A stretch of DNA of 21,973 bases from a virus. The notes beneath the pieces are model-generated. The model was given only the letters and a program-made list of their open reading frames with translations, did no database searches and was not told the DNA's origin. The stretch lies in IMG/VR virus record IMGVR_UViG_3300010413_000193, positions 1 to 21,973 of that record; one strand, written 5' to 3'. Below, piece by piece: positions 2,380 to 21,707 of this stretch (positions are counted from its first letter, which is position 1; each line of letters starts with the position of its first letter). The translations under genes were made by a program, and so were the position numbers.

Positions 2380-2387
2380 TATTTATC
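2380..2387 (-). promoter_or_regulatory. Variant late promoter GATAAATA
   Basis: One mismatch from TATAAATA, 20 bases before the ATG of the charged-protein gene, overlapping the stop codon of the terminase nuclease frame. The position fits a late promoter; the mismatch lowers confidence. Confidence 0.4.
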
Positions 2388-3489
2388 AGAAGAATTCATT
2401 ATTGAATTTTCTAGCGGCATCAAACGAATCTTCTTCATCCCACGAGCTCATTCGATTTATCAGTGACTCCTTCGAGTTATCAACCTCACCGTTATCAAAC
2501 GACCCGATATCTAAAACACTCATAAAGTCCGCCGTTTGAATGGCATCGGCTTCATCTATATGCTCAACCCTAATAGCCTCCAAGAACAGGTGCAGGTCAT
2601 CGAATGCCTTGATATGCATAAACGGAGCCATTGCGATAGCAAGAGACATAACCATATCGTCGTGATATCCCTCCTCGGCAGCGTATTTCACACTAGTATT
2701 TTCCGATTTAATGAAGCTGAAGAATTCATCAATGGTACCCCTGTCGTTGACTATAAGCTTGCCTTCCTCTATGAAGATCTTCATCATATTAAGTATAAGA
2801 GGCCTAGTTTTTTTGGTGGTCCGGAAACCATAAAATCGTTTATATCCCTTATTCTGCTCGTCACGATCTCGATACATATTAGGATACTCATAAGAAAGAT
2901 ATAACATATCAGCAATACTTTGGCCAGCCCCTTCGTTATTTTCAATAACAATGAATGCCTCGTTATAATAAAGCCCAAGTGTTTCGAGATGCTCCGGCAT
3001 AACTAGATAGTCAACATCCAACTGTGCCGCGGCGACCTGCTTGAAAGGAAACGCGGTTACATCGATAACCTGAACAGAGAACTTATCAATTCCGTCCTTA
3101 GCAGGGTCAACACCCAGAATATAACTATGTTTTTCCTTCACCTTTTCATAAATCTTTATGCCACTGAAGATACTATCCAGAGAAACTGGGGCTTTTGGTT
3201 CCATTAATTTCAACGCCTCTGTGCTAATCAAAGTGGCCGCAGAGCCAAGGAACGCGCACTCTTCCGTTTGCGCAAAATACTGGGCGCCGTACTTAGCGAT
3301 AGTTTGCTTCTCGTAAACCTCAGGTGTAAGCAAGTTACCTTTTTTATCATAGTGAGGAACTTCTTTCCAGTCCGCCTCTACCAGGCGAGCACCAGACTTT
3401 GACTGGTATTCCCTGTAAATTACCGTATATGTTCCGTCTGGGTTCTTAATAACATCTTTAATATCGTTTATTGAGTCAAGATTGATCAC
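2386..3489 (-). CDS. terL: Terminase large subunit, nuclease (C-terminal) part
   Basis: This is the headful-packaging nuclease half of a T4 gp17-like large terminase. Counted from the chosen GTG, the RNase-H-fold acidic residues fit gp17 D401, E458 and D542: D128 (in YILGVDPAKDG), E183 (in FIVIENNEGAG) and D277/D278 (in EEGYHDDMVMSL). GTG 3489 is chosen because AAGGAG (3495-3500) precedes it by five bases; an upstream TTG at 3525 is the only other in-frame start. It overlaps the end of the ATPase frame by 14 bases and lies in the +1 frame relative to it. Either the terminase is truly split and translationally coupled, or one polypeptide is broken by a frameshift at 3510-3513. The identity as the terminase nuclease domain is sure; the exact start is not. 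Confidence 0.85.
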   Translation of the reverse strand: MINLDSINDIKDVIKNPDGTYTVIYREYQSKSGARLVEADWKEVPHYDKKGNLLTPEVYEKQTIAKYGAQYFAQTEECAFLGSAATLISTEALKLMEPKAPVSLDSIFSGIKIYEKVKEKHSYILGVDPAKDGIDKFSVQVIDVTAFPFKQVAAAQLDVDYLVMPEHLETLGLYYNEAFIVIENNEGAGQSIADMLYLSYEYPNMYRDRDEQNKGYKRFYGFRTTKKTRPLILNMMKIFIEEGKLIVNDRGTIDEFFSFIKSENTSVKYAAEEGYHDDMVMSLAIAMAPFMHIKAFDDLHLFLEAIRVEHIDEADAIQTADFMSVLDIGSFDNGEVDNSKESLINRMSSWDEEDSFDAARKFNNEFF

Positions 3490-4501
3490 TAGATCTCCTT
3501 CTCTTAACGTTTTGGAACGCGTCAAATAATTCTTCAGCAGTCAATTCGAAATCATGTCCAATGAAAACCGTCTCATCTTTTTCCATCTTAACCTCGGTAG
3601 GTGGCTCGAAATTCCGGTTTTTAGCCCCCTCGACCAAGTGGTAGAAGTGGTTCATACCATTGGCCGTCGACGTACTTATGACTTGCTTAAAAATCAATGA
3701 GTTCATGGTAGGCATAACAGAGTCGATGAATTCATCCCAGAGACTTTTCTTAATATAAGCTGCTTCATCGGTATAAATGATGTTACACGTATAACCACGA
3801 AATGAGTCTGAGGACGGGCTGTCCGTCATAATACGAGTCATATTTTCGTATTCAATCTCGGATTTATTCCATACCTCAATACCCGGCATCATCCAAATAG
3901 GCAATTCAGCAAAAATCTTTTTGATTTTATCCAAAACCTCTCTGGCAGTCTTTGGTTTATTCGCAACGATACCTATATTAATATTCATGGGATGGTAGAT
4001 GCTCAACCAGAGTAAATATGTAGCGGCGGTAACGGTTTTACCACTTTGACGAGGATATAGAATAACGAGGTCTTCAAGGCTTAGGAGCTCATCTTCAAGG
4101 TGCTCTTGGTACTCACGCGGGTCTGGACGAGCTAGGCCTTTTTTGGTTGTAATCAGACAATAGTGGGTTCTGAAGTATTTGAAGTCTTCCCTGCACTTTT
4201 TATTCTCGATGTCGTGAATGATGTTCTCAGGAAGCTCAGTCTTGGCTTTTTTTAGCGTTCTGATACCATTGTAAGATACGCGACCACCGTACTTATCCAT
4301 GTAGTAACCATTGCCATTTTTCGGGGGTTGCAACAACTTCTTAAGACCGTCGTGTTCGTCGTGGGTCCAATCCTTGGTCTTCGCAACGAACTTTATAAAA
4401 TCTTGGGATTCATATAGTTCATCGGCGAATTCATCGATGGTGTCTTTATCAAGATGTTTGAGCTTAGTTAAAAGCTGTCTGTATTTTAGTTCTATATTCA
4501 T
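3476..4501 (-). CDS. terL: Terminase large subunit, ATPase (N-terminal) part
   Basis: This is the packaging-motor ATPase half of a T4 gp17-like terminase, 341 residues. The Walker A is YPRQSGKT (149-156; SRQLGKT in T4), Walker B with the catalytic acid is IIYTDEAAY (D245, E246), and the coupling motif is STSTANG (276-282) followed by MNHFYH. After residue 295 the frame continues for 46 residues that do not match the short gp17 linker, then stops, and the nuclease half follows in another frame. An exact TATAAATA lies only four bases before the ATG and there is no Shine-Dalgarno sequence, so this message may be leaderless or the true late transcript may start translation otherwise. Confidence 0.85.
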   Translation of the reverse strand: MNIELKYRQLLTKLKHLDKDTIDEFADELYESQDFIKFVAKTKDWTHDEHDGLKKLLQPPKNGNGYYMDKYGGRVSYNGIRTLKKAKTELPENIIHDIENKKCREDFKYFRTHYCLITTKKGLARPDPREYQEHLEDELLSLEDLVILYPRQSGKTVTAATYLLWLSIYHPMNINIGIVANKPKTAREVLDKIKKIFAELPIWMMPGIEVWNKSEIEYENMTRIMTDSPSSDSFRGYTCNIIYTDEAAYIKKSLWDEFIDSVMPTMNSLIFKQVISTSTANGMNHFYHLVEGAKNRNFEPPTEVKMEKDETVFIGHDFELTAEELFDAFQNVKRRRSSDQS

Positions 4502-4580: not shown

Positions 4581-4800
4581 TTATACGAAGTATTCGGCGA
4601 AATCCTCTTCTGTTCCTACGATATCTTGAAGATGTATGCTGACAATATTGTAGGTAGGTTTTCCAGTCTTTTATGCCCGGCTCGATACAACCTTCAGGTA
4701 TAACATCGAGATACTGGGTGTATTCATTGATTGATGAGGCAAGGACAATTCCGGAGTAAAGCCGGTTATCATCGTTGGTGTTTTTGTAGACGATTCTCAT
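4581..4800 (-). pseudogene. Small phage protein with a probable one-base frameshift
   Basis: From ATG 4800 (ATGA overlap with the BRCT gene) the protein reads well for about 44 residues, then the literal frame turns into an Arg-rich tail (to 4561). In the +1 frame the same DNA gives KTGKPTYNIVSIHLQDI then VGTEEDFAEYFV and a stop at 4581. That ending closely matches the end of the adjacent BRCT protein (VGTIEDMLEYFV), so the +1 frame is the ancestral one. Removing one A from the four-A run at 4669-4672 joins the two parts into a protein of about 72 residues. This may be a real mutation, a sequence error or programmed frameshifting. No function is recognised. Confidence 0.65.
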
Positions 4801-5048
4801 ACAAAGTACTCCAGCATATCTTCGATGGTACCGACGCGAACAATTTGTATCCCGCGCATTTTCGCTTCATGTTCTTTCTTAGAAACTGCGCTGAACCCCT
4901 GGGCCAAAAATCGTTCCTCACGGACCCCAACAACAACCAAGTCGGTATCCGCAGTAACGCGTTTCTCTAATTGATGCCCGAATCTTTCGACTTCAGCTTC
5001 AAGTTCTTTGCGAGTTTCTTTCAATTTTCCTGTGAATACGATATTCAT
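4797..5048 (-). CDS. Stand-alone BRCT domain protein
   Basis: The 83 residues are essentially one BRCT domain, as at the C-terminus of NAD-dependent DNA ligase LigA: first strand NIVFTGKL, helix KELEAEVERFG with a basic turn, TDLVVVGVRE in the third-strand position, SKKEHEAKMRGIQIVRVGTIEDMLE in the last helix and strand. BRCT domains bind DNA ends or phosphopeptides; here there is no catalytic domain attached, so it may be an adaptor to a DNA enzyme or mimic the ligase BRCT. Promoter TTCAG-N11-TATAATAT lies upstream and an AAGGGATATC site precedes the ATG. It ends in EYFV, as several neighbours do. Confidence 0.85.
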   Translation of the reverse strand: MNIVFTGKLKETRKELEAEVERFGHQLEKRVTADTDLVVVGVREERFLAQGFSAVSKKEHEAKMRGIQIVRVGTIEDMLEYFV

Positions 5049-11725: not shown

Positions 11726-12520
11726 TTAAAAAGTTTTAGTGGAGAAGTTTCTAAAATCATCTTGAGATATATGGCCTAGGTACTTAAAGCCCATTTTCTC
11801 GATTTGGTATTGCGCCATGCTCTGGTCGTATTTGAACCTACCCGATTCGATAGAATATACACCGAGAATTTTAAATTGGTTCATAATGATCTCATCGTAT
11901 GTTCCTATCTTGCGGTAAGGATCGGCTAGAATTTCTTTTGTTATATTTGCATACATTGTATTTGTCATGAGGGAGGTAACGTTGTCAATGTATAGCTTAA
12001 TAACTTCTGATTTCTGTTTACCAGTTAATTCATTAAAAAGAGAAACGTATTTACTACTGTCAAACAGGTACTTCCGAAAATCCTGGTCTATTTTACCGGT
12101 CATTTCAAGCATCAAGTCGATAACCTTTTTATTCATTGCTTCTTGTAAAAAATTAGATTTCGTATGTCCTCTGGAATTGATCCACCGGCGTCCCTGGGGA
12201 TCGGGATGGGAAAAGATATCAAAATCAAAGTCAATGACACTGTTTCCCTCGAGCTTGACTACCACCTCGGGTAGCAAAGAAATAGATCCTATAAGACTCC
12301 CGAGCCCCCTAGTAAACGTCGAAATTTGCTTCTTTGACTTAGACAGTTTTTTCATGTTGCCCAGAAATTCCATATTGGTGGCGTGGAACGCACTGGTTTG
12401 TCGACCATATCCTAGAGTTTTGGTGATGCGGTCTGTAAGTGGTATGCGTGATGCTGCCATCATCAAAATTATGTCTTTGTGGTAGCTAGCCTGCTCTGTT
12501 ATGTAGTGTCTAAAACGCAT
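11726..12520 (-). CDS. Capsid-targeted protein A, possible ART-like enzyme
   Basis: This 264-residue protein begins MRFRHYITE, like the T4 internal-protein targeting peptide MKTYQEFIAE; the gp21 protease of T4 cuts after such a Glu (here E9). The core shares an order with the next gene: FHATNMEFL (45-53), KQISTFTRG (64-72), a VVVKLEG strand, DPQGRRWIN (107-115), and YDEIIMNQFKILGVY (208-222). The block H or R, then S-T-x-T, then [DE]-E before a strand is how ADP-ribosyltransferases such as T4 Alt are laid out, and Alt is itself packaged. That link is an inference. The QGRRWI block recurs in uncharacterised phage proteins. ATG 12520 follows GGAGG. Confidence 0.6.
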   Translation of the reverse strand: MRFRHYITEQASYHKDIILMMAASRIPLTDRITKTLGYGRQTSAFHATNMEFLGNMKKLSKSKKQISTFTRGLGSLIGSISLLPEVVVKLEGNSVIDFDFDIFSHPDPQGRRWINSRGHTKSNFLQEAMNKKVIDLMLEMTGKIDQDFRKYLFDSSKYVSLFNELTGKQKSEVIKLYIDNVTSLMTNTMYANITKEILADPYRKIGTYDEIIMNQFKILGVYSIESGRFKYDQSMAQYQIEKMGFKYLGHISQDDFRNFSTKTF

Positions 12521-12530
12521 AGTCTGCCTC

Positions 12531-13289
12531 CTACCCCATATTCATTTTGGTATACTTTTCAAGTTCTTTGAATAGCTCTTTGGAATCGCGCATTATTTCG
12601 ATGGATTGAAAGTCCAGGATATCCCCATACGGCCGTTCAACTTCTCTGGTTGTCATAAGTTTAACTATTTTAAAATCGTATCCGAGAACCTCGCTGTAAT
12701 TTGACGTAGTCTGGCTTGCCAGCGACAGGAGAGTACCCCTAGATCGAGATATGACTTTCCCTGCAACGTCTATATACTTTTGTATAATAGCGGCTTTATC
12801 TTTATTTGATATTTCCTCATAATCGTATACAGCCGACAATAAATCCCACAGTTCCGGATTTTCGGACTTAAACTTGCTTTGTATCTCCCCGGATATCTTA
12901 GTCAAAGAATTTTTAAGAGGTACGTTCGTGATTTCCATAATATTGATCCACCTCCGACCCTGCGAATCATAATATGAGTAATTGTCCTCAGGAGTCCGAA
13001 AAGCGACTTTACCCTTTAACACGGCAACAATCGGTATCTCGAGGTCGATGCCTTCGGCACCCCATAATATACTGTAACCATCCCATTGATCGAAACACGA
13101 AATTGTTTTACGAGTACCCTGCATCCTCTGCAGCGTATGTATCTTGAGGAGCTCGAGTGTATGGAAATAATATCGGGTTTTCGTTCCAAACACCCTCTCG
13201 AATGCTTTTGGCGAAATGGGGATGTGCCCCTGGTATATTTTGGATAGAATTTCACTACTTCCTTTTTCCGTGAGCAATTCCCTAAACAT
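12531..13289 (-). CDS. Capsid-targeted protein B, paralogue of A
   Basis: This 252-residue protein begins MFRELLTE, again a targeting-peptide form with a probable cut after E8. It matches protein A in order: FHTLELL (42-48), KTISCF (61-66), IVAVLKG, DSQGRRWIN (108-116), KYIDVAGKVI against LYIDNVTSLM, and YSEVLGYDFKIVKL (198-211). The pair has diverged strongly, so this is an old duplication with probably different targets. If the fold is ADP-ribosyltransferase-like, E200 would be the catalytic Glu. The start follows AAGGATATAA; the stop is 10 bases before gene A. Confidence 0.6.
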   Translation of the reverse strand: MFRELLTEKGSSEILSKIYQGHIPISPKAFERVFGTKTRYYFHTLELLKIHTLQRMQGTRKTISCFDQWDGYSILWGAEGIDLEIPIVAVLKGKVAFRTPEDNYSYYDSQGRRWINIMEITNVPLKNSLTKISGEIQSKFKSENPELWDLLSAVYDYEEISNKDKAAIIQKYIDVAGKVISRSRGTLLSLASQTTSNYSEVLGYDFKIVKLMTTREVERPYGDILDFQSIEIMRDSKELFKELEKYTKMNMG

Positions 13290-13306: not shown

Positions 13307-13609
13307 CTATACCCATTTAATGCCGGTAATTTCCCAGCCGTAGCCAATAGCCCATTCGATTATTTCTATAATAGAAACATATGAACCCGTGTACTTACGT
13401 TTAGGTTTGGTCCAAACCTGGTTATCGATATTATTATTGTCTCTGACCAGCTCGCTAAACATCCACGAGGATCTATTTTTTGTTGCCTTGTAGTGGAAAC
13501 GTTCTTTTCCGTTGACATAGATGATGGCCTCTTTTTCATTCCAGTGCTGCTCCCGGAACTTCTCATCCATCTTAAATTTCGCTTCGGTCAAGAACATTTC
13601 ACTGAACAT
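13307..13609 (-). CDS. Small capsid-targeted protein, unknown
   Basis: The 100-residue protein begins MFSEMFLTE, then AKFKMDEK; a hydrophobic-x-Glu site occurs at E9. The rest has strands (EAIIYVNGKERFHYKAT) and ends with WEITGIKWV, suggesting a small alpha/beta domain with many aromatics. ATG 13609 overlaps the upstream stop as TAATG. The body has no recognisable family. Confidence 0.65.
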   Translation of the reverse strand: MFSEMFLTEAKFKMDEKFREQHWNEKEAIIYVNGKERFHYKATKNRSSWMFSELVRDNNNIDNQVWTKPKRKYTGSYVSIIEIIEWAIGYGWEITGIKWV

Positions 13610-13905
13610 TATATGCGACCGCCAAGTTTAGAACTGTTGAAGAGCTTTTCTATTTTCTTGATAATTTCACGCTCTTTAGCCACATCAATCCACAGGCCTT
13701 TAACCTCTTCGTCCGTGAGGAGGTCTAGCTCATAGTACAGCTTGCGAGTATATGCCTTCATCGCATCGGCCATATCGTAATATGCGTCCTTCATGATTTT
13801 GAAGTCTGCGTGCTTAGATTCTTCTAAAGTCTCTTGTTCTGTGCTGAATAGCTCAGTAAATTTTTCCATTTTTTCCCTTTTTTCCATTTTTTCCATTTTT
13901 TCCAT
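13609..13905 (-). CDS. Small capsid-targeted protein with repeated start
   Basis: The 98-residue product from ATG 13905 begins with MEK repeats and then FTELFSTE, which matches the start of T4 Alt (MELITELFDE). The cleavage-like Glu is E23, or E8 if the last ATG (13869) is used. ATG 13905 is chosen because it forms TAATG with the upstream stop and follows GGAGG; a GTG at 13914 is also in frame. The rest is helical and charged (YYDMADAMKAYTRKLYYELDLL). It is coupled at both ends to neighbours with TAATG overlaps. The function is unknown. Confidence 0.65.
   Translation of the reverse strand: MEKMEKMEKREKMEKFTELFSTEQETLEESKHADFKIMKDAYYDMADAMKAYTRKLYYELDLLTDEEVKGLWIDVAKEREIIKKIEKLFNSSKLGGRI
13867..13905. 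repeat. 9-bp repeat ATGGAAAAA duplicating a start codon
   Basis: On the minus strand the first codons are ATG GAA AAA repeated five times (start positions 13905, 13896, 13887, 13878, 13869), with ATG changed to AGG in the fourth. Each copy keeps the frame and supplies a possible start before the targeting sequence. Confidence 0.9.
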
Positions 13906-14132
13906 TACCTCCACTCCAAATCATATACTGGTTGGTCCCAGTACGTGAGGTATAAGTTCACGATGATATCGTCGTTGTATTTGATTGATTCATCTGGGTT
14001 TTGATACTGGTCCGCATCTTCATTGTAGGTGGCTTTGATTTTTCTCTTTTTCTTAAGCCATTTGTATACTTCGACTTTATAATCGTCAAGTGTTTTTGAT
14101 TCAGTTATGATGTGCCTGAATGTGTTTCCCAT
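13905..14132 (-). CDS. Small capsid-targeted protein, unknown
   Basis: The 75-residue protein begins MGNTFRHIITE followed by SKTLDD, one of the clearest targeting-peptide forms here (compare MRFRHYITE of protein A), cut site after E11. The mature part is a short basic helix (VEVYKWLKKKRKIKATY) and a strand-rich end (IIVNLYLTYWDQPVYDLEW). A T4 late promoter stands 30 bases upstream, as expected for a protein made in time for head assembly. It is first of three TAATG-coupled genes. Confidence 0.7.
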   Translation of the reverse strand: MGNTFRHIITESKTLDDYKVEVYKWLKKKRKIKATYNEDADQYQNPDESIKYNDDIIVNLYLTYWDQPVYDLEWR

Positions 14133-14198: not shown

Positions 14199-14756
14199 TT
14201 AATCGACAGTAAATTTGATTTTCATCAGCGATGAAAATGCGGCTGCAAACTTTTTGGCATTACCGTTAGATACAATCCAGGCTTGTACGCCCGCATCAGA
14301 CATATAATTTGCTTGGTCTTTGAATCCCCCTCTTGTGAGACCCACATCTGCCATCATCTGCCGCGTGACGGCGTAAGCAAGGTCTATATTCGCTATCATT
14401 ATACCCTTCTGGTTGTATGCGTGGCCCAATTCACCGTCAGCCCGGATAGGTAGATATTTTGTATTACCCATCGAATCTTTATGGACTAGCGTGAATAGTG
14501 TTTTTGATTCATTCAATGACTCAATGTGTTCCCTGTGTTCCCTGTGTTCCCTGTGTTCCCTCAACGCATTTTCAAAGTACTCTTTATATCCCTCGTTTAT
14601 ACCAGCCATATTCTTAAAGATACTGGTGATATACGCATAGTCTTCCGCGTGTCCTTCTTCTGCAGCAGCGGCTTTTGCCTCTTTCCACTTTTTCTCGAGC
14701 TCTGCAATGCTCTTACCTGTCTCTTTTGCTACTTTTTTAATATATGGTGTTGGCAT
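14199..14756 (-). CDS. Two-domain internal-type protein with REH repeats
   Basis: The 185-residue protein has three parts. Residues 1-52 are a phage module with the pattern MPTPYIKKVAKETGKSIAEL then a helix with W, AK and EEGHAEDYAYITSIFKNMAG; similar KETGKS-E-W-AK-AYITxIFKKM modules occur in many large phage proteins without known function. Residues 66-77 are four copies of REH, encoded by a perfect 9-bp repeat. Then comes IESLNE followed by SKTLFTLV, which looks like an internal targeting or cleavage motif, and a C-terminal domain (86-185) of about 100 residues. This may be a linker-fused pair of packaged proteins. ATG 14756 follows AGGATAAAAC. Confidence 0.65.
   Translation of the reverse strand: MPTPYIKKVAKETGKSIAELEKKWKEAKAAAAEEGHAEDYAYITSIFKNMAGINEGYKEYFENALREHREHREHREHIESLNESKTLFTLVHKDSMGNTKYLPIRADGELGHAYNQKGIMIANIDLAYAVTRQMMADVGLTRGGFKDQANYMSDAGVQAWIVSNGNAKKFAAAFSSLMKIKFTVD
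14525..14560. repeat. 9-bp tandem repeat, 4 perfect copies
   Basis: The unit TGTGTTCCC repeats four times head to tail and encodes Arg-Glu-His four times between the two domains of the gene at 14199-14756. Confidence 0.9.
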
Positions 14757-14759
14757 GTT

Positions 14760-14927
14760 TTATCCTATGTTAAGTTTGTTAATGAATTTTTGAACATCGC
14801 GGTTCGCCTTGATTTCTGCATCAGTTACACCAGCAAGCTCTCTGAGGTCCCCGCTTTCACCTTCACTGAATGTAGGATCGTGTCCATTACAAACAACGGC
14901 CGATTCAAATAATTCACAGAATTTTAT
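14760..14927 (-). pseudogene. 55-codon frame with targeting peptide but ATA start
   Basis: This otherwise empty gap holds a protein-like frame ending in TAA four bases before the next ATG. It reads IKFCELFES then a polar helical body with ELAGVTDAEIKANRDVQKFI. KFCELFE matches the targeting peptides around it (Alt MELITELFDE). There is no ATG, GTG or TTG in frame after the last stop; the only place for a start is ATA at 14925-14927, overlapping the upstream TAA as ATAA. One G-to-A change from the ATGA overlap used elsewhere here would give this. Alternatives are that it was the frameshifted C-terminus of the gene at 14924-15394, or that ATA is used at low efficiency. Confidence 0.6.
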
Positions 14928-15394
14928 AGTTTAGCCCCGATATCAGATTTAACAATTAGCTTCTTGATTTCAGAAAAAATCTTGATTTCGTTTTTGATAT
15001 TGATGCCGAGTTTCTTTGCATCTTGCGCCGGCATGGCCTTGAGCTGCTCGATGACGTCATCTGATGTCCAGGCCCCATCGGATACCTTGTAGTATAGTTT
15101 TCGTAGATCTTCTAGGTCGAACGCGGTAGCCTCTTCCATTGCCCCGATGTATCCTGTCAATACATCCTTAGCCCATTTATACGACATCCCTTTTTTCGCT
15201 GCTGCTTTATCGACTTTTACGAAAAATAATGCATTACTAATTAGAACGTTTTTCTCATCATCCGGAACATCATAAGCGTCAATCATCTTGAGCGCATCGC
15301 TCAAGGTCATTCCTTTTTTTGCCGCTCGCCTTAAGTCTTGGGTAAGGCCGTAGACGCTGTTGTCAGTAGACTCCGTAAAAATTTTATGAAACAT
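14924..15394 (-). CDS. Capsid-targeted helical protein, unknown
   Basis: The product is 156 residues from ATG 15394 (MFHKIFTE then STDN), chosen over an upstream TTG at 15400 because it gives the targeting form seen in neighbours and follows AAAGGG at a fair distance. The body is almost all helical, Ala/Lys/Asp-rich, with repeated-looking segments AAKKGMTLSDALKMIDAY and AAKKGMSYKWAKDVLTGY (two copies of an AAKKGM-x(4)-A unit). It resembles small basic DNA-associated internal proteins in composition only. An A insertion in the last codons would extend it into the 14760-14927 frame. Confidence 0.65.
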   Translation of the reverse strand: MFHKIFTESTDNSVYGLTQDLRRAAKKGMTLSDALKMIDAYDVPDDEKNVLISNALFFVKVDKAAAKKGMSYKWAKDVLTGYIGAMEEATAFDLEDLRKLYYKVSDGAWTSDDVIEQLKAMPAQDAKKLGINIKNEIKIFSEIKKLIVKSDIGAKL

Positions 15395-15406
15395 AGTCAA
15401 TTCCCT

Positions 15407-16915
15407 TTATTTCGAATACACTTTCACATATTCCTCGTAGAATGGCCAAACACACTTCGGTGTGTTTTCTTTGAAGTATTTATAGTCGTCGAGGTTTGCA
15501 ATAATTTTCGTTGCACTGATATCGTCATCCGTTCTCGGTGTTTCTACAACATGCATACCTCTGTTTTTCGATAACATTTTTGAATAACTTTCAACACGGT
15601 CGGACCCTGCCAGGACAAAGTTGATGTTGTTATGTGTTTTATTCATAATGGTAAACAGGTTCCCAGTGCTTGCGTTGATGATTTCAATACCAGGAAAACA
15701 GGCTTCTAAGATTTTGTTCCGGAGTTCCTTGGTACCCTTAGTTTCTTTGCTAGATACAAGAGCAACTGTCACTGTATCATATTTAACGGTAGCCTCTTTA
15801 ATAATATTGTAGTGTGCTTTTGTGAGAACCCGCATTTTACCTAGGAACAACGCGCCCTGATTACCCGGCATCGTTTTAGTCAGCACCATTCTTGCGGTTA
15901 GCTGGATATCCTCTTTTACTTGGTCTTCCGTTTTTTTGATATGTGTAAACGGGACGTTGTATGTTTTAAGTTTTCTTGCAACTTCTCGTAGTGCAGGCTG
16001 AAGGTCCCCTTCTTTAATGTCGGCGATAATCTCGTCCACTGATTTGTTTACCTTTTTCCAGTAGTCATCTTCGTACGACATATCACCACGATATTTATCT
16101 TTGATTGTGGCACGAGCAGCCTGGTCGACTTGATACTCTTGCTGGAATTTGATGATAACATCACCATACTTGATGACAACTCCTTCTTCTTTTCCCCCGT
16201 ACTTGGACTCTACGTCTAGGAACAGCTGGGAAATACCCTGGATAATGGCATCTTGGTCATCCCAATTTATATCGGATGAACGATACAAGCTGTTCAGTTC
16301 TTTATCAACAATACCCTGAGCAAAATCTTTCTTATTGCCAAGCACGCCTTTAAATAAAACTGCCGGCGTATCTAGGTTCATTTCCTTAGCATAAAGGTCT
16401 CGTTTTGAAGTATCGAACCCTTGGGGTTTCGTTATGAGTTTACCTTGTTTGGTGGACCACGTGGATTTTGTATGGCCGATTAAAACCATGCCGTGCTTCT
16501 TGGTGTAGGATGAAGATAATGTGGGCTTAGACATCAAGAATTCAACAAATAATTCAGTACCTACCGGTATATTATTTTTTCTTAATTTAAACAGGTGGTC
16601 CCACACAAACGAGAATTGTGCGTTATTGATAGAGTTTTTCTTGATAATGGCTTTCGGGATAAATGTATGTTCGTCACTAAACATCATGTTGCCCTTGTAG
16701 GCGACAATCCAGTCCTCTTCTGCCCTGCCGGTATTTGCTTGTTTTACTAACGTAAGTTTGGTTCCGTCAGTTTTATGCTCGACTACGACGTTGGATGTTA
16801 AGAAGGCACTCTTTTTCTCATCTGACGAAAGGTACTTGTTTCCATTTTGGATAGAAATATCCAGTTGCCCCTTTGATTCGCTGATGTACTGCTTGAATGA
16901 ACCTAGTTTGCCCAC
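15407..16915 (-). CDS. Capsid-targeted ligase-NMNAT-like fusion enzyme
   Basis: This 502-residue protein has three parts. Residues 1-13 (MGKLGSFKQYISE) are a targeting peptide. About 25-275 is a nucleotidyltransferase of the RNA/DNA-ligase superfamily: motif I EHKTDGTK with lysine 48 as probable AMP-accepting residue, motif III ELFVEF (E125), motif IV EEGVVIK (243-249), motif V VIIKFQ (K256). About 353-480 is a cytidylyltransferase/NMN-adenylyltransferase fold: GALFLGKMRVLTKAHYNII, where T-x-x-H (H368) stands for the usual HxGH, LAGSDR (435-440), and ISATKI (466-471) for ISxTxxR. The GTG start follows AAAGGGAAAATAA. Such cytidylyltransferase-like domains occur in T4-like cyanophages with similar N-termini. 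The substrate is not evident; RNA repair, NAD synthesis or RNA capping are possibilities. Confidence 0.7.
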   Translation of the reverse strand: MGKLGSFKQYISESKGQLDISIQNGNKYLSSDEKKSAFLTSNVVVEHKTDGTKLTLVKQANTGRAEEDWIVAYKGNMMFSDEHTFIPKAIIKKNSINNAQFSFVWDHLFKLRKNNIPVGTELFVEFLMSKPTLSSSYTKKHGMVLIGHTKSTWSTKQGKLITKPQGFDTSKRDLYAKEMNLDTPAVLFKGVLGNKKDFAQGIVDKELNSLYRSSDINWDDQDAIIQGISQLFLDVESKYGGKEEGVVIKYGDVIIKFQQEYQVDQAARATIKDKYRGDMSYEDDYWKKVNKSVDEIIADIKEGDLQPALREVARKLKTYNVPFTHIKKTEDQVKEDIQLTARMVLTKTMPGNQGALFLGKMRVLTKAHYNIIKEATVKYDTVTVALVSSKETKGTKELRNKILEACFPGIEIINASTGNLFTIMNKTHNNINFVLAGSDRVESYSKMLSKNRGMHVVETPRTDDDISATKIIANLDDYKYFKENTPKCVWPFYEEYVKVYSK

Positions 16916-16972: not shown

Positions 16973-17269
16973 TTAAAGTTCTTCGTCTTCATCTTCTGGA
17001 TGAGTAACAGGAGAAACCATGAAACCAACGACAGGTTGGTCCGTTCCGGCTGTATCGAATTTTCTAAGGTCTAGTCGGTATTCAGAATCTCCCACAGTGA
17101 TGTCATAAGTCTTGGTGACTTGACCCATGTCCATGTTTTCAATGTGTTTGAACGAATACATATCCCCGCCGTACTTGTTCTTTAACCATGTGGTGGCATC
17201 TTTGATTGCTTTTGCCACGTCGAACTCGCCCTCGTCGATACGAGAGCGGTATTGCTTAAATGATGTCAT
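16973..17269 (-). CDS. Small capsid-targeted protein, unknown
   Basis: The 98-residue protein begins MTSFKQYRSRIDE then GEFD; FKQY is shared with the ligase-fusion gene downstream and RIDE is a gp21-type site (E13). The mature part is alpha-beta: helix AIKDATTWLKNKYG, then strands TKTYDITVGDSEYRLDLRKF and VVGFMVSPVTH, and an acidic tail. A late promoter and AAGGATTATC lie upstream. No family is recognised. Confidence 0.65.
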   Translation of the reverse strand: MTSFKQYRSRIDEGEFDVAKAIKDATTWLKNKYGGDMYSFKHIENMDMGQVTKTYDITVGDSEYRLDLRKFDTAGTDQPVVGFMVSPVTHPEDEDEEL

Positions 17270-17311: not shown

Positions 17312-18676
17312 TTAATACAGTTTAGCAAAAGGACCAAAAACAGCACCCTTCTTCTGAGATAAGAACAACATACTGGTGATAAGATCGGATATCTTATCAG
17401 GCGATAACGAGAACAACTGGCCCATAAAGTCTATCTGCATAAGCTTAGACATCGCGATCGTCGGGTCTCCATTAAACCCACTAACCATATTTTCGTAGAA
17501 CTCCGTCTTGTTAATTGACGTCTCAGCATGGGGTTCCATTCTGACATACTGGTCGTAGAACTTAGTCTTCTGCTTTTCGAAATCTGCCGTTGTCTTCGGG
17601 TACATTTTGTGGCTGTTGTTCAGTGATAATCCATAGTCATCCATCAGCGAGGAAAGCATGTCAAGGGGAACTTTACCCATCCTAGCCGCGCCCGCGCCCT
17701 TTGCAGTAGCTTCAAATTTCAAGTTAGAAATACCTTTGGTATTTTGGCGGACTTGCATTACAGCATAAATTGAGTTTTTATCCGAAATGGTTATAACAGT
17801 ATCGGTAGTTTTGAATTTACCCCCACTCACAGAGATGTGAGATTTAACTGCGCTAATATGATACTTGAAATCCGATTTAAACCCCTTTTCATTAAGGTTG
17901 ACCTCCTCCCATCTGGCAGTCTTACCTGACATTTTTTTGAGAGAGATTCCCACTACTTCGTTTCTCCAGTACATTTCACGCAATACGGCATTAAATTGAG
18001 AGATAGGCCCGTCTGCAGCGCTTATGAGGATTTTTTTGTTCTTCTCGAGATTATTGACTAGCCAGATATCAGCAGGATTCCACGAGTCTTTCTTCGATAT
18101 GCCATACTTGGCTTTCACCAGATCAGTGATAAAGTCCATGAATCCCCCGTCCCTGGAAAAGTGGGTAAACTTAACCCGACCTAATTCAGCACACGTCTTC
18201 TTCTGCTGCTCGAAGAATGTATCCATCCAGTCAGAATCAACCTTAGGATACAGGTTAACTATTTCATCAGTGCAATCTTTTAAGAATTTCTTTTTGTCTT
18301 TGTATCCGCCGACTTTCAGCCCCATCTCGATTGCGTAAAGAGAGCATCTCTCCTGCATTGCAGTTGTCTTGGCGTCAATCTGGCCCCCACCCATACCGGA
18401 ATAAGGAGACTTATCGATTTCGGACCATTTGTATAGGTTGCCCGTTTTGGAGTCCTCAAAAATAGGAGCGTACCCGCTTCCGAGTTTCAAGAGTTTTTCA
18501 ACACCATTCTGACTCCCCTTTTCTATCTCTTTGAGGAGTTTCTTCACTGGGTCGTTCTGCTTGATAACGATTTTCTTAGCGCCTATTTTAACAGGGTTTT
18601 TTGACATAATGTCTTTTGCTAAAAGATTAAGATATGGTTTACCGAATGAGTATTCGCTCTTTCCAAAATTAGCCAT
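17312..18676 (-). CDS. Large unknown protein, possible nuclease-like core
   Basis: This 454-residue soluble protein has no targeting peptide and is encoded directly after the NTase-fold gene (TAAATG spacing), so the two are made together. The central part has QERCSLYAIEMG (109-120), then WNPADIWLV (199-207), then a helix with ISQFNAVLREMY and VVGISLKKMSG (241-251). An acid helix, a PADI strand with D203 and an SLKK strand in that order recall PD-(D/E)xK nucleases such as some type II restriction enzymes, where the middle acid is often replaced. This is a by-eye resemblance. ATG 18676 follows AGGGGAATAA. Confidence 0.6.
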   Translation of the reverse strand: MANFGKSEYSFGKPYLNLLAKDIMSKNPVKIGAKKIVIKQNDPVKKLLKEIEKGSQNGVEKLLKLGSGYAPIFEDSKTGNLYKWSEIDKSPYSGMGGGQIDAKTTAMQERCSLYAIEMGLKVGGYKDKKKFLKDCTDEIVNLYPKVDSDWMDTFFEQQKKTCAELGRVKFTHFSRDGGFMDFITDLVKAKYGISKKDSWNPADIWLVNNLEKNKKILISAADGPISQFNAVLREMYWRNEVVGISLKKMSGKTARWEEVNLNEKGFKSDFKYHISAVKSHISVSGGKFKTTDTVITISDKNSIYAVMQVRQNTKGISNLKFEATAKGAGAARMGKVPLDMLSSLMDDYGLSLNNSHKMYPKTTADFEKQKTKFYDQYVRMEPHAETSINKTEFYENMVSGFNGDPTIAMSKLMQIDFMGQLFSLSPDKISDLITSMLFLSQKKGAVFGPFAKLY

Positions 18677-19897
18677 TTATTCCCCTGTGAATTTTCCTCG
18701 GAAACCAGTTGGAGTGGATTCTGATACTTTCATTTTACCATAACTTTTGTAATATTCATCTGCAATTGATGTATAATCGGGCAAATAGCTGAACCTTTTT
18801 CTCATAAGGTTCAACATCCCGGATTTAATCTCAAAGTCAAGAGCTGGGTTACCTCTTTCAAGGCCCTGTGCTCCTTTGCCGATGGTTCTTTCTATCATGC
18901 GATCATATGTGTTTTTGATCGATTTCTTATCCAGGTGCTTCTGCATAAGGTCTAATAAGCCGACAAAACTCCACATTTTCTTAATATCAGAACTCGTGTG
19001 TTTCGCATTAAAGAATACTTCAAAAATGGACTCTAGGCTTTGTGTATAGTTAGAGTCCTTTGTTTTCTTCTCAATGAACACATCTTTTCCGTCAATCTGC
19101 CAATCTTGCTTCTCAAAGGCAGTACGGAGTCCATGGTCGACGCTGAATTTCAGGTTAGTCAGTTTGGTGTATGGTTGGCCGCCTTTAATACGAATCTTGT
19201 AGTTACTTTCTGTGCTTTTATCGGATACGACGAAGATGTCCTCACGCATAGAAGCACCCCCGGCAATTGAGATCAATAAGTATTTGTGGGCGACACCTTT
19301 TTGACCGGCTTTCAAGTCCTCGAACGAGCTACTGTGTGCAAACTTAGCGAATTCGTCTGGCGCCCCTTCAGGAGAGACATTAAGCATCTCAAAGTCAACC
19401 TGAGCAGGAACCCTGTACCCATTTTTGAACGTCATCATGAAAACAGAGTTAATCTGATTTGCTAGTTTGTCGTAACTGCCACGGTTGTTACCCATGTACT
19501 CGACGCCAGGAACAATCTCTTTGCCCTCTACTGTCTTAAGAAGTCTCCAAAGATCTGCTGCCTTATTTTTGTCTATGATAACATCGATATCACCAGAGTG
19601 GGTCTTATGCGCCATGATTTCATCATCCGTGTAGTCGTCGCTGAAAATGAAACTGGTGGAACCATTAAACATAACGCCGTTATCCAATAGTTTTTCGTCG
19701 ACCCAAAGAAACTCGCCAAATTTAGACTTAAACATCTTATTCAGTTTCTTGAACATTTTAATCGAGTTTTCACGGAACTCTTTGCGAGTTGAACGAGTCA
19801 TATCAATCTTTTGGGCCTCTAACGGTTTTCCTCCAACATCGATAGTAAGGTTACCACCTTCGTTCATGTTTTTCTTTTTGAAATCTTTGAAACTCAC
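18677..19897 (-). CDS. Capsid-targeted nucleotidyltransferase-fold protein
   Basis: The 406-residue protein begins MSFKDFKKKNMNE then GGNL, a longer targeting peptide with a site after E13. Residues about 75-172 carry the polymerase-beta-type nucleotidyltransferase signature: MFNGSTSFIF with G79-S80, SGDIDVIID with metal-binding D103 and D105, and the third acid D168 in VPAQVDFEML. Enzymes of this fold move NMPs onto RNA, proteins or antibiotics. The C-terminal 200 residues are helical and may bind the substrate. A GTG start (19897) follows AAGG and overlaps the region of the preceding stop. The partner gene follows at once. The substrate is unknown. Confidence 0.65.
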   Translation of the reverse strand: MSFKDFKKKNMNEGGNLTIDVGGKPLEAQKIDMTRSTRKEFRENSIKMFKKLNKMFKSKFGEFLWVDEKLLDNGVMFNGSTSFIFSDDYTDDEIMAHKTHSGDIDVIIDKNKAADLWRLLKTVEGKEIVPGVEYMGNNRGSYDKLANQINSVFMMTFKNGYRVPAQVDFEMLNVSPEGAPDEFAKFAHSSSFEDLKAGQKGVAHKYLLISIAGGASMREDIFVVSDKSTESNYKIRIKGGQPYTKLTNLKFSVDHGLRTAFEKQDWQIDGKDVFIEKKTKDSNYTQSLESIFEVFFNAKHTSSDIKKMWSFVGLLDLMQKHLDKKSIKNTYDRMIERTIGKGAQGLERGNPALDFEIKSGMLNLMRKRFSYLPDYTSIADEYYKSYGKMKVSESTPTGFRGKFTGE

Positions 19898-20143: not shown

Positions 20144-20795
20144 ACCAGTTGAATGACCTCACAAGCTCAAATGCTTCGGCGCGGTTCATGCCGGTCTTCA
20201 TCCCGTGATACTCAGCCATCATTCGCAGGCCATGGGCGCTTCTGGGGTGTGGTGTTTTTCGAACCTCTGTCACATAACACCCAAGTGATTGTACTTTTTG
20301 TTCGATGGAATCACTTATCTCGAAAAATACATTGGGGCTGAATTTTATTGGATAATTCCACTCAGAGCTAGATGGTACCTCATATGCGTAGACATGTTTA
20401 ACATTGGATGCATATGGTCTAGTTGCTACCAGCGTTGCATCTGCAACGACCCGGTGGTCTAGGTTCAAATCATTGCCTGAATGGGTGAATACTATAGAAG
20501 GATTAACCCGGGACAGCACCTGCGATATCTCATCCGCGAACCAAGACCGCTCATACATATCAAATCGTTGGTCGTCGAAGTGCTTCATTGTGATATTTTT
20601 ACTTGGTATCCCAATTACTCCGGCCGCCTTGACCGCATAAGTTGGATTACTCCGGTTTCTTCCGCCGCTCAGTATCAGAACATGGGCTTCTGCCCCCTTT
20701 TTGATCATCTCTGATACAGTACCGTAACAAAACACTTCGTCATCTGGGTGTGCTGCTATGATTAATATAGATTCATTGCCATCGGATGGTTGCAT
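20139..20795 (-). CDS. PIG-L (LmbE-type) deacetylase
   Basis: This 218-residue zinc-dependent de-N-acetylase of the PIG-L/LmbE family removes acetyl groups from N-acetylglucosamine-type sugars. The zinc site motif AHPDDE (15-20) follows the first strand ILIIAAHPD, and the second metal motif is in THSGNDLNLDHRVVADAT (NLDH, with the HxxD-type histidine). The length is typical. There is no signal peptide, so it acts in the cytoplasm, perhaps on a sugar nucleotide, a modified base or host wall precursors. It overlaps the phosphoesterase gene by 34 bases, so the two are made together. Confidence 0.88.
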   Translation of the reverse strand: MQPSDGNESILIIAAHPDDEVFCYGTVSEMIKKGAEAHVLILSGGRNRSNPTYAVKAAGVIGIPSKNITMKHFDDQRFDMYERSWFADEISQVLSRVNPSIVFTHSGNDLNLDHRVVADATLVATRPYASNVKHVYAYEVPSSSEWNYPIKFSPNVFFEISDSIEQKVQSLGCYVTEVRKTPHPRSAHGLRMMAEYHGMKTGMNRAEAFELVRSFNWL

Positions 20796-21379
20796 ATTTG
20801 GACATCTCCGTTTTCAAATAATTCATGGATTTTATCGAAGTCGACAGGAGTAAATCCGTTCAAATCAGCGGATACATTGAATCTCCAGCCGCCCCGAGCA
20901 TCTACGTGTTGGTGACCGTGGATAAGCTTATTACATTTTGATTTCGCAAAAATAGAATCCAGTTCTCGTTCTGCAGGCTTAATCCAGTCCTCCTGGACGG
21001 TTAAATCCAGCGGATAGTGACAGATAAAATATGGACCAATCTCGAGATAATCGTACACCGCAGAAAATCCCATCTGAATATATGCCTTGTTTTTCAGGTG
21101 GTCATGATTCCCGCGGACTAAAATATGCGTCCCGTTTAGAGAATCGAATGTTTCTTTTAGCCACTCTTTGCGGCCTTTTATCCCAGCACTGAAATCACCG
21201 ACATGAATTACCAGATCGTCAGGTGAAACCACGTTGTTGTGATTTTCAACCATCGCATCCCGCATTTCGTATTCATCTTTGAAACCGCGTGCGCAGTACT
21301 TGATTATATTCTTATGTCCATAGTGTTCGTCAGATATAAACCAGACCTTTCTTGCGTTTTTAATTGTTGTCTCTAACAT
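20762..21379 (-). CDS. Calcineurin-like metallophosphoesterase
   Basis: This 205-residue protein has the ordered metal motifs of the family: SDEHYGHKNI (D-x-H form, about 16-25), VIHVGDFS, VRGNHDH, CHYPLD, and HGHQH. The extra H after DEHYGH is typical of phage and bacterial phosphoesterases that cut phosphodiesters or small nucleotides. The enzyme is cytoplasmic. The gene overlaps both neighbours (20 bases with the co-chaperonin, 34 with the PIG-L gene), so the three form one unit. The substrate is not evident. Confidence 0.88.
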   Translation of the reverse strand: MLETTIKNARKVWFISDEHYGHKNIIKYCARGFKDEYEMRDAMVENHNNVVSPDDLVIHVGDFSAGIKGRKEWLKETFDSLNGTHILVRGNHDHLKNKAYIQMGFSAVYDYLEIGPYFICHYPLDLTVQEDWIKPAERELDSIFAKSKCNKLIHGHQHVDARGGWRFNVSADLNGFTPVDFDKIHELFENGDVQICNHPMAMNLY

Positions 21380-21707
21380 CTTTTACCCGGATACCGTCGA
21401 TCCTGTTACTTGTGGTCATGAGGTATTTTTCTTCACCTTCTGTAATGATCATATTCATATCAAAAGCATTTTGGGGCGGAAAGAAAACCTGCATGCCGAC
21501 TTCGACTTCTTTCGCGTCTGGTCCCTTTGATACAATAACACCTGTTGATGGCCTGTCGGTTATCGGAGACATTGCCGCATCCGGGATGATAATGCCGGTA
21601 GCAGTTACCTTTTTAGTTTCGTCTGGGGTATACTTGATAACAATAACGTTTGATTGAGGAGCAAACTCGTACCATTGGATATACCCATTACTTGAATTTG
21701 ATAACAT
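21360..21707 (-). CDS. GroES-like co-chaperonin (T4 gp31-type)
   Basis: This 115-residue GroES-fold protein has NVIVIKYTPDETKKVTATGI (the first barrel strands), TGVIVSKGPDA, VEVGMQVFFPP and a final EGEEKYLMTTSNRIDGIRV. The middle has a mobile-loop-like segment at IPDAAMSPITDRPST. T4 gp31 replaces host GroES so that GroEL can fold the capsid protein; this one probably does the same. It is led by the variant promoter at 21731-21753 and an AAGGAAATAA site. It is first in the unit with the phosphoesterase and deacetylase. Confidence 0.85.
   Translation of the reverse strand: MLSNSSNGYIQWYEFAPQSNVIVIKYTPDETKKVTATGIIIPDAAMSPITDRPSTGVIVSKGPDAKEVEVGMQVFFPPQNAFDMNMIITEGEEKYLMTTSNRIDGIRVKDVRDNN

Follow-up and report, generated by a model that had tools for sequence, protein, structure and literature searches.

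T4 RNA ligase 2 (Rnl2) and other Rnl2-type ligases (PF09414) carry motifs I, III, IV and V in that order, with a helical part after motif V. NMN adenylyltransferases (NMNATs) form a pyrophosphate link between AMP and a nucleoside 5'-phosphate, and the ligase and HIGH families both form 5'-5' pyrophosphate-linked adenylates. Bacterial Pnkp combines kinase, phosphatase and ligase for RNA repair, while polymerase beta, a ligase and PNKP serve single-strand break repair in animals. Among phage proteins, T4 Alt is packaged in the head and injected early. The internal proteins of T4 bear a propeptide of about 10 residues that is required for targeting and that the prohead protease cleaves off after a glutamate (PMC9026906, PMC5694885). 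Another phage protein, the Pol-beta-type transferase RlaP, accompanies a phage RNA ligase and is proposed to restore lost nucleotides before sealing (PMC7824862). Here we describe a ligase fused to a HIGH-type adenylyltransferase, a combination that is undescribed in the literature searched, namely passages of PMC9503650, PMC7824862, PMC5512222 and Campylobacter and cyanophage genome papers; this search was incomplete, and an earlier description is possible. A sequence-only reading of the locus had also known of no activity described for the combination, and our search yielded none.

The window, by which we mean the whole stretch of DNA analyzed, is a virus record of 21,973 bases that is T4-like by content read by eye (terminase, ribonucleotide reductase). 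On its minus strand, positions 15407..16915 encode the 502-residue ligase-HIGH protein, which has a GTG start with an AAGGG Shine-Dalgarno-like sequence close upstream, a good ribosome-binding sequence. The protein matches phrog_27149 along its length (E 4.6e-134), a family labelled "unknown function" in PHROG. Because many phages encode proteins that share 32-65% identity with most of it, the open reading frame is not a chance one and is a real gene. With this protein, tblastn retrieved 22 phage records, comprising 15 of Campylobacter (Firehammervirus-type), six of Vibrio and one of Xanthomonas phage X1, where the match was partial; many are near-identical or duplicate, so that they represent very few lineages. 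Scanning viral contigs contributed 36 further ligase-HIGH loci (32-65% identity), a few of them Campylobacter phages again. When bacterial and archaeal genomes were scanned with a pattern, 78 stretches matched, with no relative of the ligase-HIGH protein among them. Conservation was counted in an alignment of 32 homologous proteins, with invariance scored only where a residue was covered. In the family-profile search the 502-residue protein on its own fell below curated cut-offs, and the family matches given below come from individual homologues. Its AlphaFold model had a mean pLDDT of 89.5, with residues 1-19 disordered.

Residues 16-348 (15872..16870, minus strand) comprise the ligase-type nucleotidyltransferase domain and a helical C-terminal part. 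K48, D50 and G51 of motif I (K48-T-D-G; 16763-16774, minus strand) are invariant in all covering homologues, as are E125 in the motif III region (ELFVEF), E244-G245 of motif IV and K256 of motif V (n = 32). Seven of the 32 members matched Pfam RNA_ligase (PF09414), at best with E 1.2e-5 and with the scores shown below the curated 27 bits. Foldseek placed T4 Rnl2 first among solved structures (2hvr_A, E 5.7e-7, probability 1.00), ahead of phosphopantetheine and NMN adenylyltransferases; the TM-score of the Rnl2 match is low because the query held both domains together. Matches to predicted viral structures repeatedly include RNA ligases 2 from giant viruses and phages. After motif V the model is helical (residues 265-348) and shows no evident OB fold. 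By its motifs and predicted fold, the first half is a domain of the covalent nucleotidyltransferase (ligase) superfamily, and in the model it looks more like RNA ligases than DNA ligases. It resembles Rnl2 in motif order, predicted fold and the helical part after the catalytic domain but, unlike Rnl2, is fused to a HIGH domain and has a predicted head-packaging propeptide. Profile comparison of the ligase half with T4 Rnl2, a T4 Rnl1-like ligase and T4 DNA ligase gave nothing significant, so we claim no ligase subfamily; a PDB sequence search with this half had no match up to E 10.

The second half, residues 352-502 (15410..15862, minus strand), contains the motifs TKAH, AGSDR and ISATKI. Wherever covered in the 32-member alignment, G359, H368, G437, D439, R440 and S467 are invariant, and position 365 is T, S or H. 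CTP_transf_like (PF01467) matched 29 of the 32 members (best 1.7e-8, several above the cut-off) and the NCBIfam NMN adenylyltransferase PRK01153 matched 23 (best 1.3e-13). VIA-align gave Z scores of ~16 to phosphopantetheine adenylyltransferase (PPAT, over 145 residues) and 15.5 to NMNAT 1f9a. This same M. jannaschii NMNAT was the best sequence-profile match of the second half alone (E 1.7e-7, nearly full length). The two families thus fit the structure near-equally, and the sequence profile slightly favors NMNAT. Judged on the HxGH/TxxH and ISxT motifs and the Rossmann-like fold of the model, the second half is a HIGH-type (PF01467) adenylyltransferase. It shares with NMNAT and PPAT, including phage NadM and NadR, the fold, the second His of TxxH/HxGH, the ISxT motif and the GxD motif. 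Unlike those enzymes, it is fused to a ligase and has no NadV association, and the first His and final Arg are usually replaced in its family; canonical HxGH and ISxTxxR residues are changed in most fused members. Between two close relatives (L008 and L018), the ligase halves are 80% identical and the HIGH halves 49%, and the HIGH half has apparently been exchanged. The sequence-only reading had recognized a ligase-type domain (KTDG motif I, motifs III-V) and a nucleotidyltransferase in the second half, and both assignments hold up, in that the model reproduces T4 Rnl2 and PPAT/NMNAT folds for the respective halves. It had also named loss of motif residues in homologues as evidence to the contrary; none was seen at the catalytic residues wherever these were covered among the 32 homologues, with T365 of the TxxH motif variable as noted.

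Both this protein and a nearby partner appear to begin with head-targeting peptides. In the ligase-HIGH protein, the predicted propeptide comprises residues 1-13 (MGKLGSFKQYISE; 16877..16915, minus strand), with cleavage expected after E13 and before S. It is disordered in the model and fits the T4 propeptide pattern. Of 29 homologues with readable N-termini, 22 are extended before LDIS, the conserved start, and all 22 extensions contain [LIVM]xE, a triplet present in 28% of 15-residue N-termini of unrelated proteins at the same loci. The other seven, including the Campylobacter and Vibrio copies, begin directly at LDIS without a propeptide. The partner, a Pol-beta/PolX-type nucleotidyltransferase of 406 residues (phrog_19290; 18677..19897, minus strand), has the propeptide MSFKDFKKKNMNE directly before GGN. 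Its homologues begin with MGGN or a close variant of it, or else with an extension ending in [LIVM]xE directly before GGN. The latter arrangement was found in 33 of 33 distinct extended N-termini, always with E immediately before GGN, against a background of 2% for the exact position; the partner in Campylobacter phage CP220 (locus L086), for example, carries MKLSELMFILE before GGN. On this sequence pattern, the ligase-HIGH protein and its partner both bear the short N-terminal propeptide of T4-type head cargo, which bears out the packaging peptide that the sequence-only reading had proposed for the former. The likeness to T4 internal proteins and Alt lies in a short N-terminal propeptide ending in [LI]xE in T4-like phages; the cargo differs, and here packaging and cleavage are predicted.

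A relative in cyanophages provides further information on packaging. The citidylyltransferase T4-GC190 was detected by mass spectrometry in purified S-SM1 virions by Sullivan et al. 2010 (PMC3037559). In the S-SM1 record, T4-GC190 is SSM1_190, which starts with MKKFSAFLNEA and directly follows the KWDG gene T4-GC71. Its presence in virions supports the view that a cyanophage relative packages the HIGH part, as an analogy and not for the window's own protein. By sequence pattern and analogy, the linked enzyme set appears to be head cargo that is delivered to the cell along with the phage DNA.

The partner's assignment rests on its active site and predicted fold. The catalytic triad GS...GDxD...D (G79 S80, D103xD105, D168) is invariant in 23 homologues, and the top Foldseek matches of the model (pLDDT 85.3) were all family X polymerases (lambda, mu, beta, TdT), with modest but uniform scores (E 8e-4, Z 8.5). 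These features indicate a family X/Pol-beta transferase, albeit at a modest score. Like RlaP, it is a Pol-beta-type transferase accompanying a putative phage RNA ligase, but it belongs to another family, with a fold closest to family X polymerases. We also considered RlaP itself (PF10127) and rejected it by Pfam, because PF10127 matched in three of 15 records, in each case elsewhere than at the partner gene. Of 33 stretches, 26 hold a PolX-type gene close to the ligase-HIGH gene, in most cases a few genes upstream of it. Both genes co-occur in the same isolated phages, and in CP220 they are ~65 kb apart.

Several other window neighbors of the ligase-HIGH gene bear propeptide-like peptides. All lie on the minus strand. 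Between the ligase-HIGH and PolX-type genes, a 98-residue protein (16973..17269) starts with MTSFKQYRSRIDE before G, as read from its open reading frame. On the other side, a 158-residue protein (14924..15400), read in the same way, has MTMFHKIFTE before S and is possibly further head cargo, judging from this peptide. A protein of phrog_1462 with a possible PD-(D/E)XK-like ISLK motif, seen by eye, is encoded at 17312..18676. It is linked to ligase-HIGH genes in nine stretches, and its relative gp182 of cyanophage syn9 precedes ligase-like and HIGH genes. It is missing from the Campylobacter and Vibrio matches and is not a required member of the module. A calcineurin-like phosphoesterase (20762..21379; PF00149, E 6.1e-9) has counterparts in 12 of 33 stretches, and in relatives it is often directly upstream of the PolX-type gene.

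Additional features of the window were observed. Two adjoining related proteins of one cluster (11726-12520 and 12531-13289, minus strand) have the propeptide-like starts MRFRHYITE and MFRELLTE, and relatives of them occur near the ligase-HIGH gene in four other loci (L007, L008, L025, L037). In-frame short repeats are found at 13609-13914 (MEKMEKMEKREKMEK, at the propeptide-like N-terminus of one protein) and at ~14526-14560 (EHREHREHREH, inside another). Just upstream of the module are a PIG-L-type deacetylase (PF02585; 20139-20795, minus strand) and, by eye, a GroES/gp31-like protein (21360-21707, minus strand). A small protein at 4797-5048 (minus strand) resembles, by eye, a lone BRCT domain. 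The large terminase appears as two overlapping open reading frames in different frames (2386-3525 and 3476-4501, within 2386-4501, minus strand), reflecting a frameshift, a sequencing error or an interrupted gene.

The same parts recur elsewhere in both split and fused form. They are separate adjacent genes in Xanthomonas phage X1, Menderavirus and cyanophages. X1 and Stenotrophomonas phage Moby have, side by side, an MGGN Pol-beta-type gene, a gene for an SCK/SVK-motif protein, a KxDG ligase-like gene and a canonical HIGH transferase gene. The KxDG proteins of X1 and Moby are ligase-like by their motifs. In profile comparison, the split X1 protein matched weakly and over motifs IV-V only, and we identify it as a ligase from the ordered motifs KLDG, ECE, EGVVI and YKI and from its position. 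In PHROG, phrog_12709 covers Moby gp49 and gp50 as one protein, and phrog_455 covers syn9 gp183 and gp184. The K[WY]DG protein of cyanophages corresponds to Pfam DUF6267, which has relatives in 469 records and of which we found no mention in the literature searched; its gene usually precedes the HIGH gene in the genomes examined, with S-H38 an exception. The cyanophage pair (T4-GC71/DUF6267 and T4-GC190) resembles the window's fusion in that a K[WY]DG ligase-like gene sits beside a HIGH gene, next to head genes, but its genes are separate and strongly diverged, and the ligase assignment of DUF6267 is by motifs only.

When the partner served as query against viral contigs, 26 of the 80 stretches retrieved contained the ligase-HIGH fusion. 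Ten more stretches had a ligase whose HIGH half escaped the profile, and each of the three that were read contained [KP]xHxGH and an ISGT-type motif. The same contigs held 17 open reading frames of 681-1569 residues, some near-duplicates, in which a PolX-type domain is joined to a ligase domain; 16 of these also contain HxGH. Two all-in-one polypeptides (L103, L132) have further domains after HIGH (HD-like; GP88). Another protein (L076) combines polynucleotide-kinase-like, ligase and HIGH domains. The best solved relatives of the linked kinase were 4gp7/4jst (E 1.6e-5), deposited as metallophosphoesterase, which we take to be the Clostridium thermocellum Pnkp kinase; T4 polynucleotide kinase was among much weaker matches, together with adenylate kinases. 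The kinase-ligase fusion and the calcineurin-like phosphoesterase gene often nearby recall bacterial Pnkp, although the window-type set mostly comprises separate genes, has extra PolX and HIGH parts and is predicted to be packaged. The ligase-HIGH protein belongs to a wider module common to many T4-like phages. The sequence-only reading was right about the fusion but overlooked this larger unit, with its PolX-type transferase, its split and all-in-one forms and the neighbors' propeptides.

We propose, with about an even chance of being correct, that these are phage nucleic-acid end-repair enzymes that are packed in the head and injected with the DNA, and that RNA, such as cleaved tRNA, is their likeliest substrate. 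RNA is favored because the ligase looks like Rnl2 and because its C-terminal part is helical, with no OB fold apparent. An injected end-repair set is favored because the module appears to follow an RlaP-like logic with different parts, and because relatives add a kinase and often a phosphoesterase. On the T4 precedent, the propeptide would direct each enzyme into the prohead, where the prohead protease would remove it, and the enzyme would then enter the cell together with the DNA. The PolX-type partner, given its intact triad and fold, may add or fill in missing nucleotides at a broken end. The ligase, given its invariant motifs and fold, would self-adenylylate on K48, activate a 5'-phosphate and seal the break. 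Where present, the polynucleotide-kinase-like protein and the calcineurin-like phosphoesterase might prepare the ends. Our best guess for the HIGH domain is a second adenylyl transfer aiding ligation, for example by making App-ended strands from 5'-phosphate and ATP. Such a role on strand ends is conceivable because the NMNAT reaction, if a strand replaced NMN, is formally that by which ligases activate a 5'-phosphate strand. Stated most boldly, the HIGH transferase would act on nucleic-acid ends (App-ended or cofactor-capped) with the ligase and PolX, as a new end chemistry, injected and widespread in T4-like phages, and at work from the virion ahead of all phage gene expression; we regard this version as doubtful. 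The substrate of the HIGH domain is the novel part of the system.

Several points count against end repair. The ligase half gave no significant profile match to the T4 ligases compared, and the PolX match is modest. The Campylobacter and Vibrio copies without a propeptide are a point against a packaged role, we know of no repair role for a HIGH domain, and plain ligation would be redundant in several carriers because they also encode a T4 Rnl1-type ligase (eight of the 15 records with a ligase-HIGH gene). The main rival is that the same set repairs DNA in the incoming phage genome through PolX gap filling and ligation, with help from the kinase and phosphoesterase, much as in animal single-strand break repair. 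The partner does have the fold of a gap-filling DNA polymerase, its kinase and phosphoesterase neighbors would suit end cleaning, and injection with the genome would put the enzymes on DNA. We nevertheless consider DNA repair unlikely in that the ligase half resembles RNA rather than DNA ligases, with no OB fold evident after motif V, and several relatives have a distinct DNA ligase gene close by (CP220 annotation; cluster 9). RNA repair, which the sequence-only reading had raised, remains a leading possibility on the motifs and models.

Less probable still is that RNA 5' ends receive a nucleotide cofactor or an adenylyl group from the HIGH domain (an NAD-like or AMP cap), with the ligase as a capping or transfer enzyme that protects or marks RNA; the sequence-only reading had suggested attachment of a nucleotide cofactor to RNA or protein. 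Both active sites belong to families making 5'-5' pyrophosphate-linked adenylates, NMNAT is the nearest profile match of the HIGH half and the motifs are intact even in split genes; however, no cap-binding or RNA-binding domain was recognized, and capping leaves the PolX partner and the kinase fusion unexplained. Head packaging and early injection, as in T4 Alt, would also be accounted for by an injected effector with no part in repair, one that takes over the host by adenylylating or otherwise altering one of its proteins or RNAs, but the full ligase motif set and the kinase and PolX fusions point to nucleic-acid ends, and we judge this reading quite improbable. That Pol-beta transferases occur among injected effectors (PMC5512222) speaks in its favor. 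The least probable alternative, also put forward by the sequence-only reading, has the HIGH domain making NAD from NMN against an NAD-depleting defense, with the ligase as an accessory. Besides the profile similarity to NMNAT, phages with NadV-NMNAT salvage are known (PMC9503650), yet NadV/NAMPT is missing from 12 of 15 carrier records, including the complete CP220 (177 kb) and Va1 (195 kb), some others being fragments, and from contigs of 154-158 kb with a ligase-HIGH gene. The three records with NadV (G004, G005 and phage X1) hold another adenylyltransferase gene beside or near it. We set NAD salvage aside on these 15 records; it also leaves the strict linkage to ligase and PolX unexplained and sits poorly with the altered HxGH and ISxTxxR residues of most fused members.

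The proposal of injected end repair can be addressed directly because Syn9, S-SM1, CP220 and Moby are isolated phages. If it is true, virions come equipped with repair enzymes, and a tRNA-cutting (or DNA-cutting) defense would be reversible from the first moment of infection. It would also provide a function for phrog_27149, phrog_19290, phrog_12709, phrog_455 and probably DUF6267, families that span hundreds of cyanophage records as well as phages of Campylobacter, Vibrio, Xanthomonas and Stenotrophomonas, and it would pose the question of what role a HIGH transferase has in strand repair.
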